From Crocinitomicaceae bacterium (lineage in GTDB: Bacteria; Bacteroidota; Bacteroidia; Flavobacteriales_D; Crocinitomicaceae), in assembly GCA_030727405.1 (NCBI GenBank), contig JANRBR010000039.1, positions 1 to 64,000 of the forward strand: a stretch of 64,000 nucleotides of DNA, given 5' to 3'. Shown piece after piece: positions 1-1,796 of this stretch (positions are counted from its first letter, which is position 1; the number at the start of each line of letters is the position of its first letter). Under the pieces are notes generated by a model. That model did not search any database and had not been told where the DNA came from. It was given only the letters and a program-made list of their open reading frames with translations. The position numbers were made by a program, and so were the translations under genes.

Positions 1-42
1 TTCTAAATAACCCGTTGTTGTGATGCTTCCTTTTCTACTCAT
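1..42 (-). CDS. Possible 5' end of a truncated gene
   Basis: On the minus strand an ATG at 42 opens a frame that runs off the left edge of the window (14 codons, beginning MSRKGS). Nothing can be said about function. It lies downstream of, and in the same direction as, the small membrane-protein gene that follows. The call rests only on an open frame with an ATG. Confidence 0.35.
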   Translation of the reverse strand, partial: MSRKGSITTTGYLE

Positions 43-153
43 ATTATACTTTTATTTCAAGGATAACGGGAGTATAAGTTAAAAGCTACATTATATTATT
101 ATACGTCTGTTTTTCAGTGAATTATATCTTATACTTTCTACAAAAGTGTAAGG

Positions 154-495
154 TTATGGGAGTTGTTTTTTGATTGGGGTTGGAACCTCGTACACATATT
201 TTTTAAGATATGCACTGAATACTGTTTTTTTTTCATTCCTTACGAAAGCACTAATATCACCCTTAGGTATTGAATACAAGAATCCACCACTTACAAAATA
301 TACATTGTCATCAACAATCACACCGTTCACACTTAATGGTGAATTTGTATTTTGAGTTGAAGGGATTTCTACCTTATTCTCGTTGTTGTTTGAATATGCC
401 GGACTAATCGCATAAATCATAAAACCAAAGGATGCCATCATCATAGATGAACCCACCATCAGTTTGTACCAATTTTCTTTTACAAAATTTTTCAT
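154..495 (-). CDS. Small single-span membrane-anchored protein, unknown function
   Basis: A 113-residue protein I do not recognise. Residues about 10-32 form one hydrophobic stretch (an uncleaved signal anchor or signal peptide). An Asn-rich linker and a compact soluble tail with a VYFVSGGFLYSIPKGD-like segment follow. The N-terminal anchor suggests the soluble part faces the periplasm. The nearest gene upstream on the same strand is the GIY-YIG ORF, but a terminator-like hairpin at 541-572 separates them, so it is probably its own transcript. It is probably a real gene given the coherent signal-anchor start, but no family can be named. Confidence 0.55.
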   Translation of the reverse strand: MKNFVKENWYKLMVGSSMMMASFGFMIYAISPAYSNNNENKVEIPSTQNTNSPLSVNGVIVDDNVYFVSGGFLYSIPKGDISAFVRNEKKTVFSAYLKKYVYEVPTPIKKQLP

Positions 496-540
496 TCTTT
501 TAAAATTTAAATGTTTTGGATAAATGTAAGAAATAATAAA

Positions 541-572
541 AAGAAGTCCTGACGTTTCCGTCAGGACTTCTT
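541..572 (-). terminator. Intrinsic terminator, copy 1 of repeat
   Basis: Near-perfect 14-bp stem around a TTTC loop (arms 541-554 and 559-572). On the minus strand it is followed by a T-rich run (the A-rich stretch 529-542 on the plus strand). It is a duplicate of the hairpin that follows the intact tRNA-Phe at 867-898 and would end the GIY-YIG transcript. Confidence 0.75.
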
Positions 573-618
573 GCTAGTGGTGCCTCCAGGAATCTCCGCC
601 GCGGCGGACCAGGGACAC
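544..618. repeat. Direct repeat copy 1: terminator plus tRNA-Phe 3' remnant
   Basis: Positions 544-594 are identical to 873-923 (51 bp), covering the terminator hairpin and the acceptor/T-arm end of tRNA-Phe. After a 13-bp block (595-607) that replaces two tRNA bases, homology resumes for 11 bp (608-618, matching 926-936) and stops at the stop codon of the GIY-YIG ORF. This is therefore a partial, non-functional tRNA 3' end. Confidence 0.9.
595..608. repeat. 14-bp GC-rich perfect palindrome in the tRNA remnant
   Basis: The sequence tccgccgcggcgga reads the same on both strands and sits inside the T-loop position of the duplicated tRNA-Phe end. The intact tRNA has only the two bases 'ga' (924-925) at that place. 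The composition (12 of 14 G/C) contrasts sharply with the AT-rich surroundings. It could be an element end, a nuclease recognition site or an RNA hairpin. Confidence 0.85.
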
Positions 619-863
619 TAATATCCAGTCTTTTTCTTGATGAAATCTCGACCTTTTCCCGTTTTAAGTTCCTTTTCTCGAATGATCGCTTCTTTCTTGG
701 TTGTAAATTCTTCTTGGTGTATCAAAACCCATGGACCTTTTCCTTTTGTGAACTTACCTAATAATCCCTGATTGTGTTCACTTAATCGACGCATGAGATC
801 TTCAGTATATCCAGTATACTTATACTTGGCTTTTTCAGAATACAATACATATACAAAATACAT
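618..863 (-). CDS. GIY-YIG nuclease domain protein (UPF0213-like)
   Basis: An 81-residue protein made almost entirely of a GIY-YIG domain. The family's paired motifs appear as YVLYS (residues 5-9) and YTGYT (16-20), followed by the conserved Arg/His region (DLMRRLSEHN) and the basic KEAIIREKELK segment carrying the catalytic Glu. GIY-YIG domains cut DNA or RNA using a metal ion; the role of free-standing mini versions is unclear. The TAG stop abuts a duplicated tRNA-Phe 3' end. The ORF lies just downstream of tRNA-Phe and its terminator on the same strand. Family call is firm, function is not. Confidence 0.85.
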   Translation of the reverse strand: MYFVYVLYSEKAKYKYTGYTEDLMRRLSEHNQGLLGKFTKGKGPWVLIHQEEFTTKKEAIIREKELKTGKGRDFIKKKTGY

Positions 864-866
864 CTC

Positions 867-898
867 AAAAAAAAGTCCTGACGTTTCCGTCAGGACTT
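867..898 (-). terminator. Intrinsic terminator of tRNA-Phe (repeat copy 2)
   Basis: An 11-bp stem (873-883 with 888-898) around a TTTC loop, followed on the minus strand by an 8-nt U run (A tract 867-874 on the plus strand). It lies 8 nt beyond the tRNA 3' end. It also overlaps the region just upstream of the GIY-YIG ATG at 863. Confidence 0.85.
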
Positions 899-936
899 CT
901 TGCTAGTGGTGCCTCCAGGAATCGAACCAGGGACAC
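873..936. repeat. Direct repeat copy 2, overlapping intact tRNA-Phe
   Basis: Partner of the repeat at 544-618. It contains the terminator and the last 30 nt of the intact tRNA-Phe (T-arm, acceptor 3' strand and part of the variable loop). Confidence 0.9.
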
Positions 937-979
937 AAGGATTTTCAGTCCTTTGCTCTACCAACTGAGCTAAGGCACC
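907..979 (-). tRNA. tRNA-Phe (GAA)
   Basis: A 73-nt cloverleaf with a 7-bp acceptor stem (ggtgcct/aggcacc), D-arm gctc...gagc, anticodon stem aagga/tcctt with loop ctgaaaa giving anticodon GAA, and T-loop ttcgatt. CCA is not encoded. Both T-stem strands read cctgg, so positions 51 and 63 form a U-U mismatch rather than a pair, which is unusual. Its 3' portion lies inside a direct repeat shared with the remnant at 578-618. Confidence 0.93.
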
Positions 980-1055
980 AGCTATTGGTGGGGCAAATTT
1001 AACACTTTTTTTTATTTCTATTCAAAAAGTCAGGTAAATTTCTTTGAAAGCTACT

Positions 1056-1063
1056 TAACTTTG
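1056..1063 (+). promoter_or_regulatory. -7 box (TAACTTTG) of coaX
   Basis: Matches the Bacteroidota sigma-A -7 consensus TAnnTTTG. It ends 4 nt before the coaX ATG, so transcription would begin at or next to the start codon. No clear TTG -33 element is seen at 19-23 nt. Confidence 0.5.
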
Positions 1064-1067
1064 TTTT

Positions 1068-1796
1068 ATGAATCATGCAACGACCGCCTATTTACTGGAT
1101 GCTGGAAACACGCAAGTGAAACTCGCGGAAGTAAAGAATGACTTGATTTCGAGTGTTAAACGCTTCAATTTAAACACCTTCCCTTGGTCAGATCTCAACA
1201 GTAACATTCCTATTTTGATTTCGTCTGTACTTTCTGATGAATGGAAAAATTCCATCGAAGATTTCTTTCGAAACAAGATATACATAAACGTTAACATGAA
1301 ACTGCCATTTCAACTTGCTTACGAAACGCCGGAAACATTAGGAATGGATCGTTTATGCAATATGGCAGGTGTCGCTCAAAAAAATCCAAATAAACCTAAA
1401 TTGGTAGTTGACTTAGGGACTTGCATAAAATGCGATTTCATGAATGATCAGCAGGTTTATGAGGGTGGCTCCATATCTCCTGGTTTAAACATGCGCGCTA
1501 AAGCGTTGCATTCTTTCACGGCCAAACTTCCAAACATTCCCGTTGATGCGCATGCCAAACTGATTGGAAAAAACACTCGGGAATCCATCACAAGTGGTGT
1601 TTTCAATGGCTGGGAAGCTGAAATAAAGGGACTCATTCAAGCATATAAATTGACCTACCCTGATTTAGTTGTTTACCTTTGTGGTGGAGATGCGAGGCAT
1701 TTTGATTTCGATCAAAAAAGTAACATCTTTGTACTCGAACATTTAACCCTAGAAGGAATTCTAGAAATTTACCGCCTGAATGAAAATTCTCTTTAG
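1068..1796 (+). CDS. coaX: Type III pantothenate kinase
   Basis: Phosphorylates pantothenate with ATP, the first step of coenzyme A synthesis, in the cytoplasm. The 242-residue length fits the family. Visible motifs of the ASKHA fold are DAGNT (residues 11-15; phosphate 1, normally DxGNT), GMDR (92-95), VVDLGTC (113-119; phosphate 2, where most families have GTA), GGSISPG (133-139) and CGGDA near 210. Type III enzymes need a monovalent cation and are not inhibited by CoA. The end overlaps the next gene by 17 bp, which suggests co-transcription with the outer-membrane and LptC genes. Confidence 0.95.
   Translation: MNHATTAYLLDAGNTQVKLAEVKNDLISSVKRFNLNTFPWSDLNSNIPILISSVLSDEWKNSIEDFFRNKIYINVNMKLPFQLAYETPETLGMDRLCNMAGVAQKNPNKPKLVVDLGTCIKCDFMNDQQVYEGGSISPGLNMRAKALHSFTAKLPNIPVDAHAKLIGKNTRESITSGVFNGWEAEIKGLIQAYKLTYPDLVVYLCGGDARHFDFDQKSNIFVLEHLTLEGILEIYRLNENSL

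Follow-up and report, generated by a model that had tools for sequence, protein, structure and literature searches.

Fungal mitochondria possess hybrid genes in which a mobile endonuclease reading frame, or mORF, has joined a resident gene; examples are atp6 of Allomyces and atp6, atp9, cox2 and nad3 of Glomus (PMC3630166). As that account describes it, the endonuclease ORF (of the GIY-YIG family in Glomus atp9) inserts together with a replacement for the 3' end of its host gene, and the native end lies downstream. The same account reports that the endonuclease of such hybrids was shown biochemically to be responsible for their mobility (PMC3630166).

Another GIY-YIG endonuclease is associated with tRNA genes. 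SegB of phages T4 and T6 is a free-standing homing endonuclease whose gene often lies beside tRNA genes, and it is implicated in cutting within tRNA-containing sequences (PMC13096335). According to the description given there, SegB promotes segmental amplification, probably between the tRNA 5' region and the segB 3' region. In bacteria, tRNA genes also house integrative elements, with examples in one account of about 9 to 121 kb (PMC9897764).

Has a bacterial unit that joins a nuclease gene to a tRNA end been described? None of such design appeared among the literature matches listed, which consist of titles and the start of abstracts and cover subscription journals thinly. In the available text of the 2006 survey of GIY-YIG proteins (PMC1564403), the word 'tRNA' occurs only for one methyltransferase fusion and twice in the reference list. 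The main text of a review of short palindromic elements (PMC10969869), as available, mentions neither 'tRNA' nor 'GIY-YIG'.

Here we analyse such a unit in a Crocinitomicaceae bacterium. The window, by which we mean the whole stretch of DNA analysed, comprises 64,000 nucleotides; its position 1 is the end of a contig (G000:C39:1) of a genome (G000) of 2.2 Mb. On the minus strand, an intact tRNA-Phe gene is followed by a terminator, an 81-aa GIY-YIG gene, a partial tRNA-Phe and a second terminator:

1068 to 1796, plus strand: coaX, type III pantothenate kinase (PF03309), a neighbour that serves as host marker and lies outside the element
906 to 979, minus strand: intact tRNA-Phe(GAA), the target gene (ARAGORN; Rfam RF00005 tRNA, 70.3 bits)
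870 to 901, minus strand: terminator-like hairpin, proximal copy, between tRNA-Phe and the ORF (inverted repeat I7 with a T-run)
867 to 923, unstranded: direct repeat (family D1), tRNA-proximal copy
618 to 863, minus strand: GIY-YIG ORF of 81 aa (ORF list; PF01541)
578 to 617, minus strand: partial tRNA-Phe copy from the T-arm to the 3' end, split by a palindrome (comparison with the intact tRNA-Phe)
595 to 608, unstranded: perfect 14-bp palindrome TCCGCCGCGGCGGA in the T-loop of the partial copy, at the junction
541 to 572, minus strand: terminator-like hairpin, distal (second) copy (inverted repeat I4)
538 to 594, unstranded: direct repeat (family D1), distal copy, 98% identical to the proximal copy at a spacing of 329
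154 to 495, minus strand: small ORF of 113 aa just downstream of the unit, with no Pfam match in the profile scan

An earlier note on this DNA, made from the letters alone, had described a lone 81-residue GIY-YIG ORF flanked by direct repeats (51 identical bp and a short one) that each contain the tRNA-Phe 3' end and a terminator, with no integrase or transposase. All of this is borne out. The ORF, read from 863 to 618, matches PF01541 with E=2.4e-17 (63.5 bits, cut-off 22.6). The direct repeat spans 57 nt and has a single mismatch, with an exact match over 51 bp, and its copies start 329 bp apart, the period of a unit of about 330 bases; such a pair is expected about 4e-26 times by chance in 3 kb (a rough union bound with equal base frequencies). 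A second, short match (605-618 and 923-936) covers 14 nt, also with one mismatch. By the positions of the direct and inverted repeats, both long copies consist of tRNA-Phe from T-loop to 3' end plus the terminator hairpin. The 3' end of the ORF, just before the partial copy, itself aligns with tRNA-Phe, as seen in the close relatives G045 and G047. This alignment, the palindrome in the partial copy and the contig end at position 1 go beyond what the earlier note had described.

The GIY-YIG gene is the only ORF of at least 40 aa on the unit's strand inside the unit; two 44-aa ORFs on the other strand lie outside the family scan. None of the five neighbouring ORFs scanned matches a recombinase family (two of them match no family), on a contig that ends at position 1, and no transposase family appears among the ORFs scanned, the unit being bounded by direct repeats. 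An att-like layout is present, with an intact and a partial tRNA copy on either side of the element. We set aside an integrase island or insertion sequence, as no such family occurs in the unit's gene or the neighbours scanned, and likewise a group I intron: the tRNA is uninterrupted, and window positions 1-1200 give no Rfam group I intron match at E up to 1.

How does this unit compare with the systems above? In anatomy it corresponds to a homing-like insertion bringing a tRNA end along with it, much as mORFs bring an end of their host genes. The mORFs enter protein genes of organelles, whereas here the host is a bacterial tRNA gene; the window's unit also differs in its junction hairpin, its 81-aa Slx1-like nuclease and its own terminator, and it is known here from sequence alone. 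The tandem growth of units reported below recalls, by description, the segmental amplification by phage tRNA genes. SegB differs in being a phage gene, and its description contains neither replacement of a tRNA 3' end nor a hairpin-split copy (PMC13096335). Integrative elements resemble the unit in having one intact and one partial tRNA copy as flanks (PMC9897764). By contrast, the unit measures about 330 bp, and its partial copy is split by a hairpin. It also has no integrase, the enzyme that integrative elements in tRNA genes are known to carry. In Escherichia coli, tandem units behind the tyrT gene repeat the tRNA-Tyr 3' end, much as the window's unit repeats that of tRNA-Phe; unlike it they are not known to have a nuclease gene, and the literature matches listed include nothing on these repeats. 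Finally, the Rickettsia palindromic elements, MITEs and REPs are likewise short palindromic units found at many places, some in frame in genes (PMC10969869), whereas the window's element is linked to a single nuclease family and to the loops of tRNAs. The unit has the look of mobile DNA of a little-known kind that lacks its own integrase.

The reading we favour, with moderate confidence, is that the unit is a minimal, integrase-less mobile element that behaves in a homing-like manner, targets one tRNA gene and brings a replacement for its 3' end. Such an element would consist of the replacement 3' end with its own terminator, the small GIY-YIG gene and a degenerate tRNA segment ending in the hairpin. 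Insertion would take place in one of the loops of the tRNA gene, the T-loop in the present case. The tRNA would be completed by the copy that the element brings, which leaves the host gene intact, and the original 3' end and terminator would be pushed downstream, behind the hairpin. The nuclease may cleave an empty tRNA locus, or a cruciform at that locus; the break would then be repaired from a donor copy, such as DNA that the cell has taken up, and the unit thereby copied in. As for the hairpin, we can only guess that it might mark the junction, protect the element's own copy or serve as the recognition structure; structure-selective action at hairpins would conceivably suit an Slx1-like fold.

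Evidence for insertion comes from filled and empty sites. In 86 genomes of the genus, ARAGORN places 74 tRNA-Phe loci, of which 70 are informative; one of the others has a different 3' end (L179) and three have less than 25 bp downstream (L007, L032, L034), and partial tRNA-Phe matches at four contig ends (G040:C2, G053:C192, G063:C114, G071:C127) are uncounted. The full GIY-YIG gene is present at 10 of the 70 loci, each time with the 3' repeat (10/10). Neither gene nor repeat is found at 56. At three loci (G002, G074 and G076; 3 of the 59 GIY-free loci) the repeat occurs but no full gene, and at one (G032) the gene is truncated and the repeat missing; these four count against the favoured reading. 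The association of gene and repeat, full gene versus no gene, gives a Fisher p of 8e-10. Remnants, sought by eye in 25 of the loci, are visible in G046 and G059, which retain the first bases of the gene.

The clearest case is the filled locus of G025 set against the empty one of G079. The two align from -360 to +5 and again from +319 against -18, with the stretch from T-loop to 3' end repeated and an inserted unit of about 337 bp. In G025 a foreign terminator adjoins the tRNA, and the native one, the terminator found in G070, G079, G080 and G081, stands behind the partial copy. Aligned in this way, the two sequences show an insertion that displaced the native terminator downstream; its boundary emerges from just the comparison of filled and empty sites in relatives that the earlier note had proposed. 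For G045 and G056, and for G028 and G072, the match breaks off after the tRNA terminator and picks up again at the partial copy. In two further pairs (G055 and G062, G064 and G011) the upstream sides are 94-96% identical and one member has the gene; downstream there is no alignment, and the two pairs therefore document presence and absence without placing a boundary.

Homing-type elements are judged by whether their one cognate site is occupied in some relatives and empty in others, and the 10 occupied loci in 70 and the filled and empty pairs display this pattern. On a coaX tree of 59 of the 70 loci, 9 of them filled, carriage changes 7 times, against a shuffled mean of 8.5 (36 of 500 shuffles are as low). 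For the other 11 loci, including the filled one of G015, no coaX was found, and G032, G046 and G059, which keep parts of the gene, were scored as empty. Because 7 changes lie near the shuffled mean, carriage appears, on this one gene tree, hardly more clustered than chance. The T-loop of the intact tRNA is identical in carriers and in empty genomes. A nuclease that cut only the T-loop sequence would thus cut its own host, a difficulty for the favoured reading, and protection must come from elsewhere.

Might the structure instead be an old local tandem duplication of the tRNA 3' end that enclosed a resident gene and was inherited vertically? The window's two repeats are nearly identical, and many genomes of the genus have coaX next to tRNA-Phe, as such a history would have it. 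Yet related species have empty and filled sites, a foreign terminator stands by the tRNA in G025, the unit is far more conserved than the neighbouring gene, and the same design recurs at other tRNAs. The comparison of G025 with G079 contradicts this history, to which we give next to no credence. The earlier note had named two findings that would speak for it: a structure invariant among close relatives, or an ORF mostly free of tRNA duplications. At this locus carriage varies (10/70) and the gene always accompanies a tRNA duplication (10/10). Its own proposal, an inserted element at a tRNA end, has stood up, given filled and empty sites, tandem copies and units at other tRNAs.

The similarity of units between genomes exceeds that of their surroundings. 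Between G000 and G045 the unit is 95.8% identical, against 70.4% on the coaX side; between G000 and G047 the GIY-YIG gene has a dS of 0.24, against 1.23 for the neighbouring coaX. With a single marker gene for reference, this points to lateral transfer as the probable cause of the high identity. Pointing the same way, window positions 32-546 match DNA beside tRNA-Phe in the distant species G002 (78% over 539 alignment columns, the first stretch nearly identical), whose coaX protein has only 42% identity to the window's. In G002 the shared DNA lies between a GIY-YIG 3'-end remnant with palindrome and another partial tRNA-Phe 3' end. DNA in and around the 113-aa ORF is common to other species behind tRNA-Phe (G002, and 133 bp in G042).

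The earlier note had also suggested looking for several copies per genome, and these exist. G020 carries two full units and a truncated third at a spacing of 329, and 12 further loci have at least two near-full copies within 900 bp (13 rows, with one locus appearing twice). Among the multi-copy loci are those of Flavobacterium orientale, F. lacus and three Algoriphagus strains; these are strains rather than MAGs, which argues against an assembly artefact. Mini-units without the gene, with a period of about 100 bp, are present in G076 and G048. tRNA-Met 5' fragments with the palindrome form arrays in G020, and similar repeats end a contig of the window's genome.

Units of this kind are not confined to tRNA-Phe. 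Within the genus, related genes adjoin Arg, Met, Asn, Leu and Asp tRNAs and tmRNA; beyond it they lie beside Met, Tyr, Asn, Pro, Ala and other tRNAs in other Bacteroidota, Ignavibacteria, Chlorobiota, Elusimicrobia and Patescibacteria. In the wide scan, a co-oriented tRNA lies within 450 bp at 49 of 79 loci, some of them on the same contigs as the genus set, and an opposite-strand tRNA at none of the 79; these shares are biased, since the proteins used to assemble the wide set by similarity were mostly tRNA-linked. When both sets are combined into 145 distinct near-full copies (182 matches before removal of duplicates), 84 have an intact co-oriented tRNA or tmRNA within 450 bp and one has such a gene on the other strand. 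Counting same-strand partial copies as well brings the number to 104 of 145, with minus-strand partial matches, a measure of noise, at 20 of 145. The remaining 41 copies lack both a co-oriented tRNA and a partial copy on their own strand, and only 5 of them have short flanks; copies without a tRNA link are a point against the favoured reading.

In most classes the gene stands behind the tRNA and is followed by a 3' fragment. The gene comes ahead of the tRNA in one Arg class, there with a 5' fragment before it, and in several further classes. Depending on the tRNA, the junction falls in the T-loop, the anticodon region, the variable region or the D-loop, and most junctions have an inserted hairpin. 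The suggestion in the earlier note that a tRNA end is used as target is therefore too narrow.

On a tree of the 145 rows (78 columns, many forks without resolution), 26 changes in the isotype of the nearest tRNA suffice; shuffled labels need 82.4 on average, and none of 200 shuffles gets down to 26. Clustering is strong for Met, Phe, Arg, Asn and Leu. It is absent for Pro, Ser and Ala, with 2-4 rows each, another point against the favoured reading. Judged from this tree, the larger GIY-YIG clades show fidelity to one isotype. At one Uhrbacteria locus (L245) a partial tRNA-Asn with a palindrome precedes the GIY-YIG gene, an intact tRNA-Asn and a partial tRNA-Asn with the same palindrome.

We also considered phage or plasmid cargo and rejected it. 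One viral contig was confirmed (L305), and the 12 plasmid and 9 phage records are all below 60% identity; the close relatives found are thus in bacterial genome assemblies. In L305, the only viral relative confirmed, the GIY-YIG match (16-264) overlaps the start of a tRNA-Cys (245-329).

What kind of nuclease does the unit encode? Among the residues invariant in an alignment of 15 sequences are Y5, Y16, G18, R26, H30 and E63, which we take to have catalytic roles. An AlphaFold2 model of the 81-aa protein has a pLDDT of 95.4. Its nearest solved structures are UPF0213 BH0048 (1zg2, E 4.3e-5) and then entries of Slx1, an enzyme that acts on branched DNA, with the I-TevI catalytic domain (1ln0) at E 0.46, and sequence profile comparison agrees in placing UPF0213 and Slx1 nearer than I-TevI. 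By nearest folds and sequence profile, rather than by phylogeny, the protein belongs in the Slx1/UPF0213-like branch. That the fold is of this type and not I-TevI-like is a further argument against the favoured reading. A length of 81 aa gives no room for a separate DNA-binding domain. Among the ten tRNA-Phe-linked genes, dN/dS is about 0.04-0.17 where computable, many pairs being saturated at synonymous sites; these values show, as far as substitution ratios can, a protein kept functional by strong purifying selection.

This selection bears on the idea that the unit is a passive passenger, spread by host homologous recombination of taken-up DNA with the tRNA end on one side and multiplied in tandem by unequal exchange between repeats, while the nuclease has some other role. 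We regard this as unlikely. Direct repeats and a highly conserved tRNA are well suited to recombination, gene-less mini-units and tRNA-fragment arrays exist (G076, G048, L096, L065), and the nuclease activity of the protein is a prediction. Purifying selection on the nuclease, the recurrent pairing of one gene family with many tRNA types and the isotype fidelity of larger clades nevertheless need a reason that ties the nuclease to the site. Under the favoured reading, and as the earlier note thought possible, the nuclease itself would cleave the site and drive the insertion.

Purifying selection would also suit a device that benefits the host, in which the nuclease and a decoy tRNA end guard the tRNA gene against integrating phages and islands, or in which RNA is the substrate of the nuclease. 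Integration into tRNA genes is common (PMC9897764), and read-through from the tRNA may express the ORF, which comes right after that gene and its terminator. The uneven carriage, the remnants of decay (G046, G059, G032) and the units without a gene suggest something selfish rather than useful, and we consider such a device very improbable.

We turn to the palindrome. Its 10-bp core occurs at only two places in the window's 2.2-Mb genome, the second lying at a contig end, within repeated sequence similar to the 5' end of a tRNA. Across units, the junction of 41 of 48 partial tRNA 3' copies bears a perfect inverted repeat of 6 bp or more, compared with 3.1 in shuffles and 1 of 48 in an ORF-interior control; 7 of the 48 have no perfect hairpin, and one of the 41 is plain TTTTAATTAAAA. 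The hairpin sequence varies by tRNA class, and its position in a tRNA loop or arm is constant. As single-stranded DNA the window's partial copy folds no better than shuffles (z -0.49), which leaves a special single-strand structure of the whole copy unsupported there. The centre of the palindrome, CCGCGG, is the recognition site of Eco29kI and SacII; we set it aside as the recognition site here, since hairpins of other classes are without CCGCGG.

The core CGCCGCGGCG is present in 54 of the 86 genomes, with a maximum of 34 in one; a reversed-pattern control gives 0 to 2. Outside units it is found in a terminator loop, in low-complexity arrays and in coding-like sequence. We therefore rejected the palindrome as an exclusive mark of the element: it is found elsewhere without a GIY-YIG gene, often enough to weigh against the favoured reading.

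Could the hairpin be the mobile thing, a palindromic REP- or MITE-like repeat that enters the loops of stem-loop DNA, with the GIY-YIG gene as helper or later passenger? The abundance of the core relative to its control points that way, as does its occurrence in D-loops of tRNA-Met and tRNA-Ala 5' fragments, in arrays without GIY-YIG and in a terminator loop; similar arms also flank several in-frame GIY-YIG segments in restriction genes. But hairpin sequences differ between tRNA classes while the junction position is kept, and the stretch inserted in G025 relative to G079 is the whole unit and not a hairpin alone. We judge this explanation distinctly unlikely.

A wider proposal, which we advance tentatively and with more doubt than belief, is that a widespread, undescribed class rests on a single Slx1-like, structure-selective nuclease acting at cruciforms. 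Autonomous units (nuclease, tRNA half and hairpin) and gene-less mini-units (tRNA fragment and hairpin) would insert into loops of a specific tRNA. Clades would stay with a single isotype even between species and phyla, and a related branch would lie in frame within restriction-modification genes.

If the unit is mobile as the favoured reading has it, it would in our judgement be among the smallest autonomous mobile elements in bacteria. It would illustrate a simple route into an essential gene without harm, namely to bring a replacement end, and would be a bacterial counterpart of the 3'-end-replacing endonuclease ORFs of fungal mitochondria. It would also account for some partial tRNA copies otherwise ascribed to phage integration and assign a target to a large group of small GIY-YIG genes. 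How a nuclease of about 80 residues chooses its site could be studied along the natural series that the tRNA-specific clades form.

Several observations concern relatives of the gene or of the palindrome. A clade of 16 short GIY-YIG genes in the genus (L196, L198, L203, L204, L206, L208, L210, L212-L215, L217, L220, L221, L223 and L225) has no intact tRNA nearby and one doubtful partial match (L206); it is an ordinary chromosomal relative, useful as a contrast. Another related clade without tRNA neighbours lies in frame inside larger open frames. There are 14 such frames, 8 of which were scanned (L264, L272, L273, L275, L290, L296, L300 and L303); L278, L283, L286, L289, L298 and L302 lie outside the scan. 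Seven of the 8 match restriction or methylase families (Methylase_S in 4, N6_Mtase, HsdR domains, N6_N4_Mtase) and one matches DUF1156. CCTGC/GCAGG-type arms flank several of the in-frame GIY-YIG segments in restriction genes.

tRNA 5' fragments with the same palindrome in the D-loop occur at L096 (G020:C10), L065 (the end of C18 in the window's genome), L111 and L092. L096, L111 and L092 adjoin an intact tRNA-Met or tRNA-Ala, L065 has no intact tRNA, and none of the four has a GIY-YIG match; they are possible gene-less relatives of the units. L099 (G020:C12:51000-63000) and L098 are low-complexity arrays in which degenerate gtgctaatgtgctagtt-like repeats are mixed with the CCGCCGCGGCGG palindrome.
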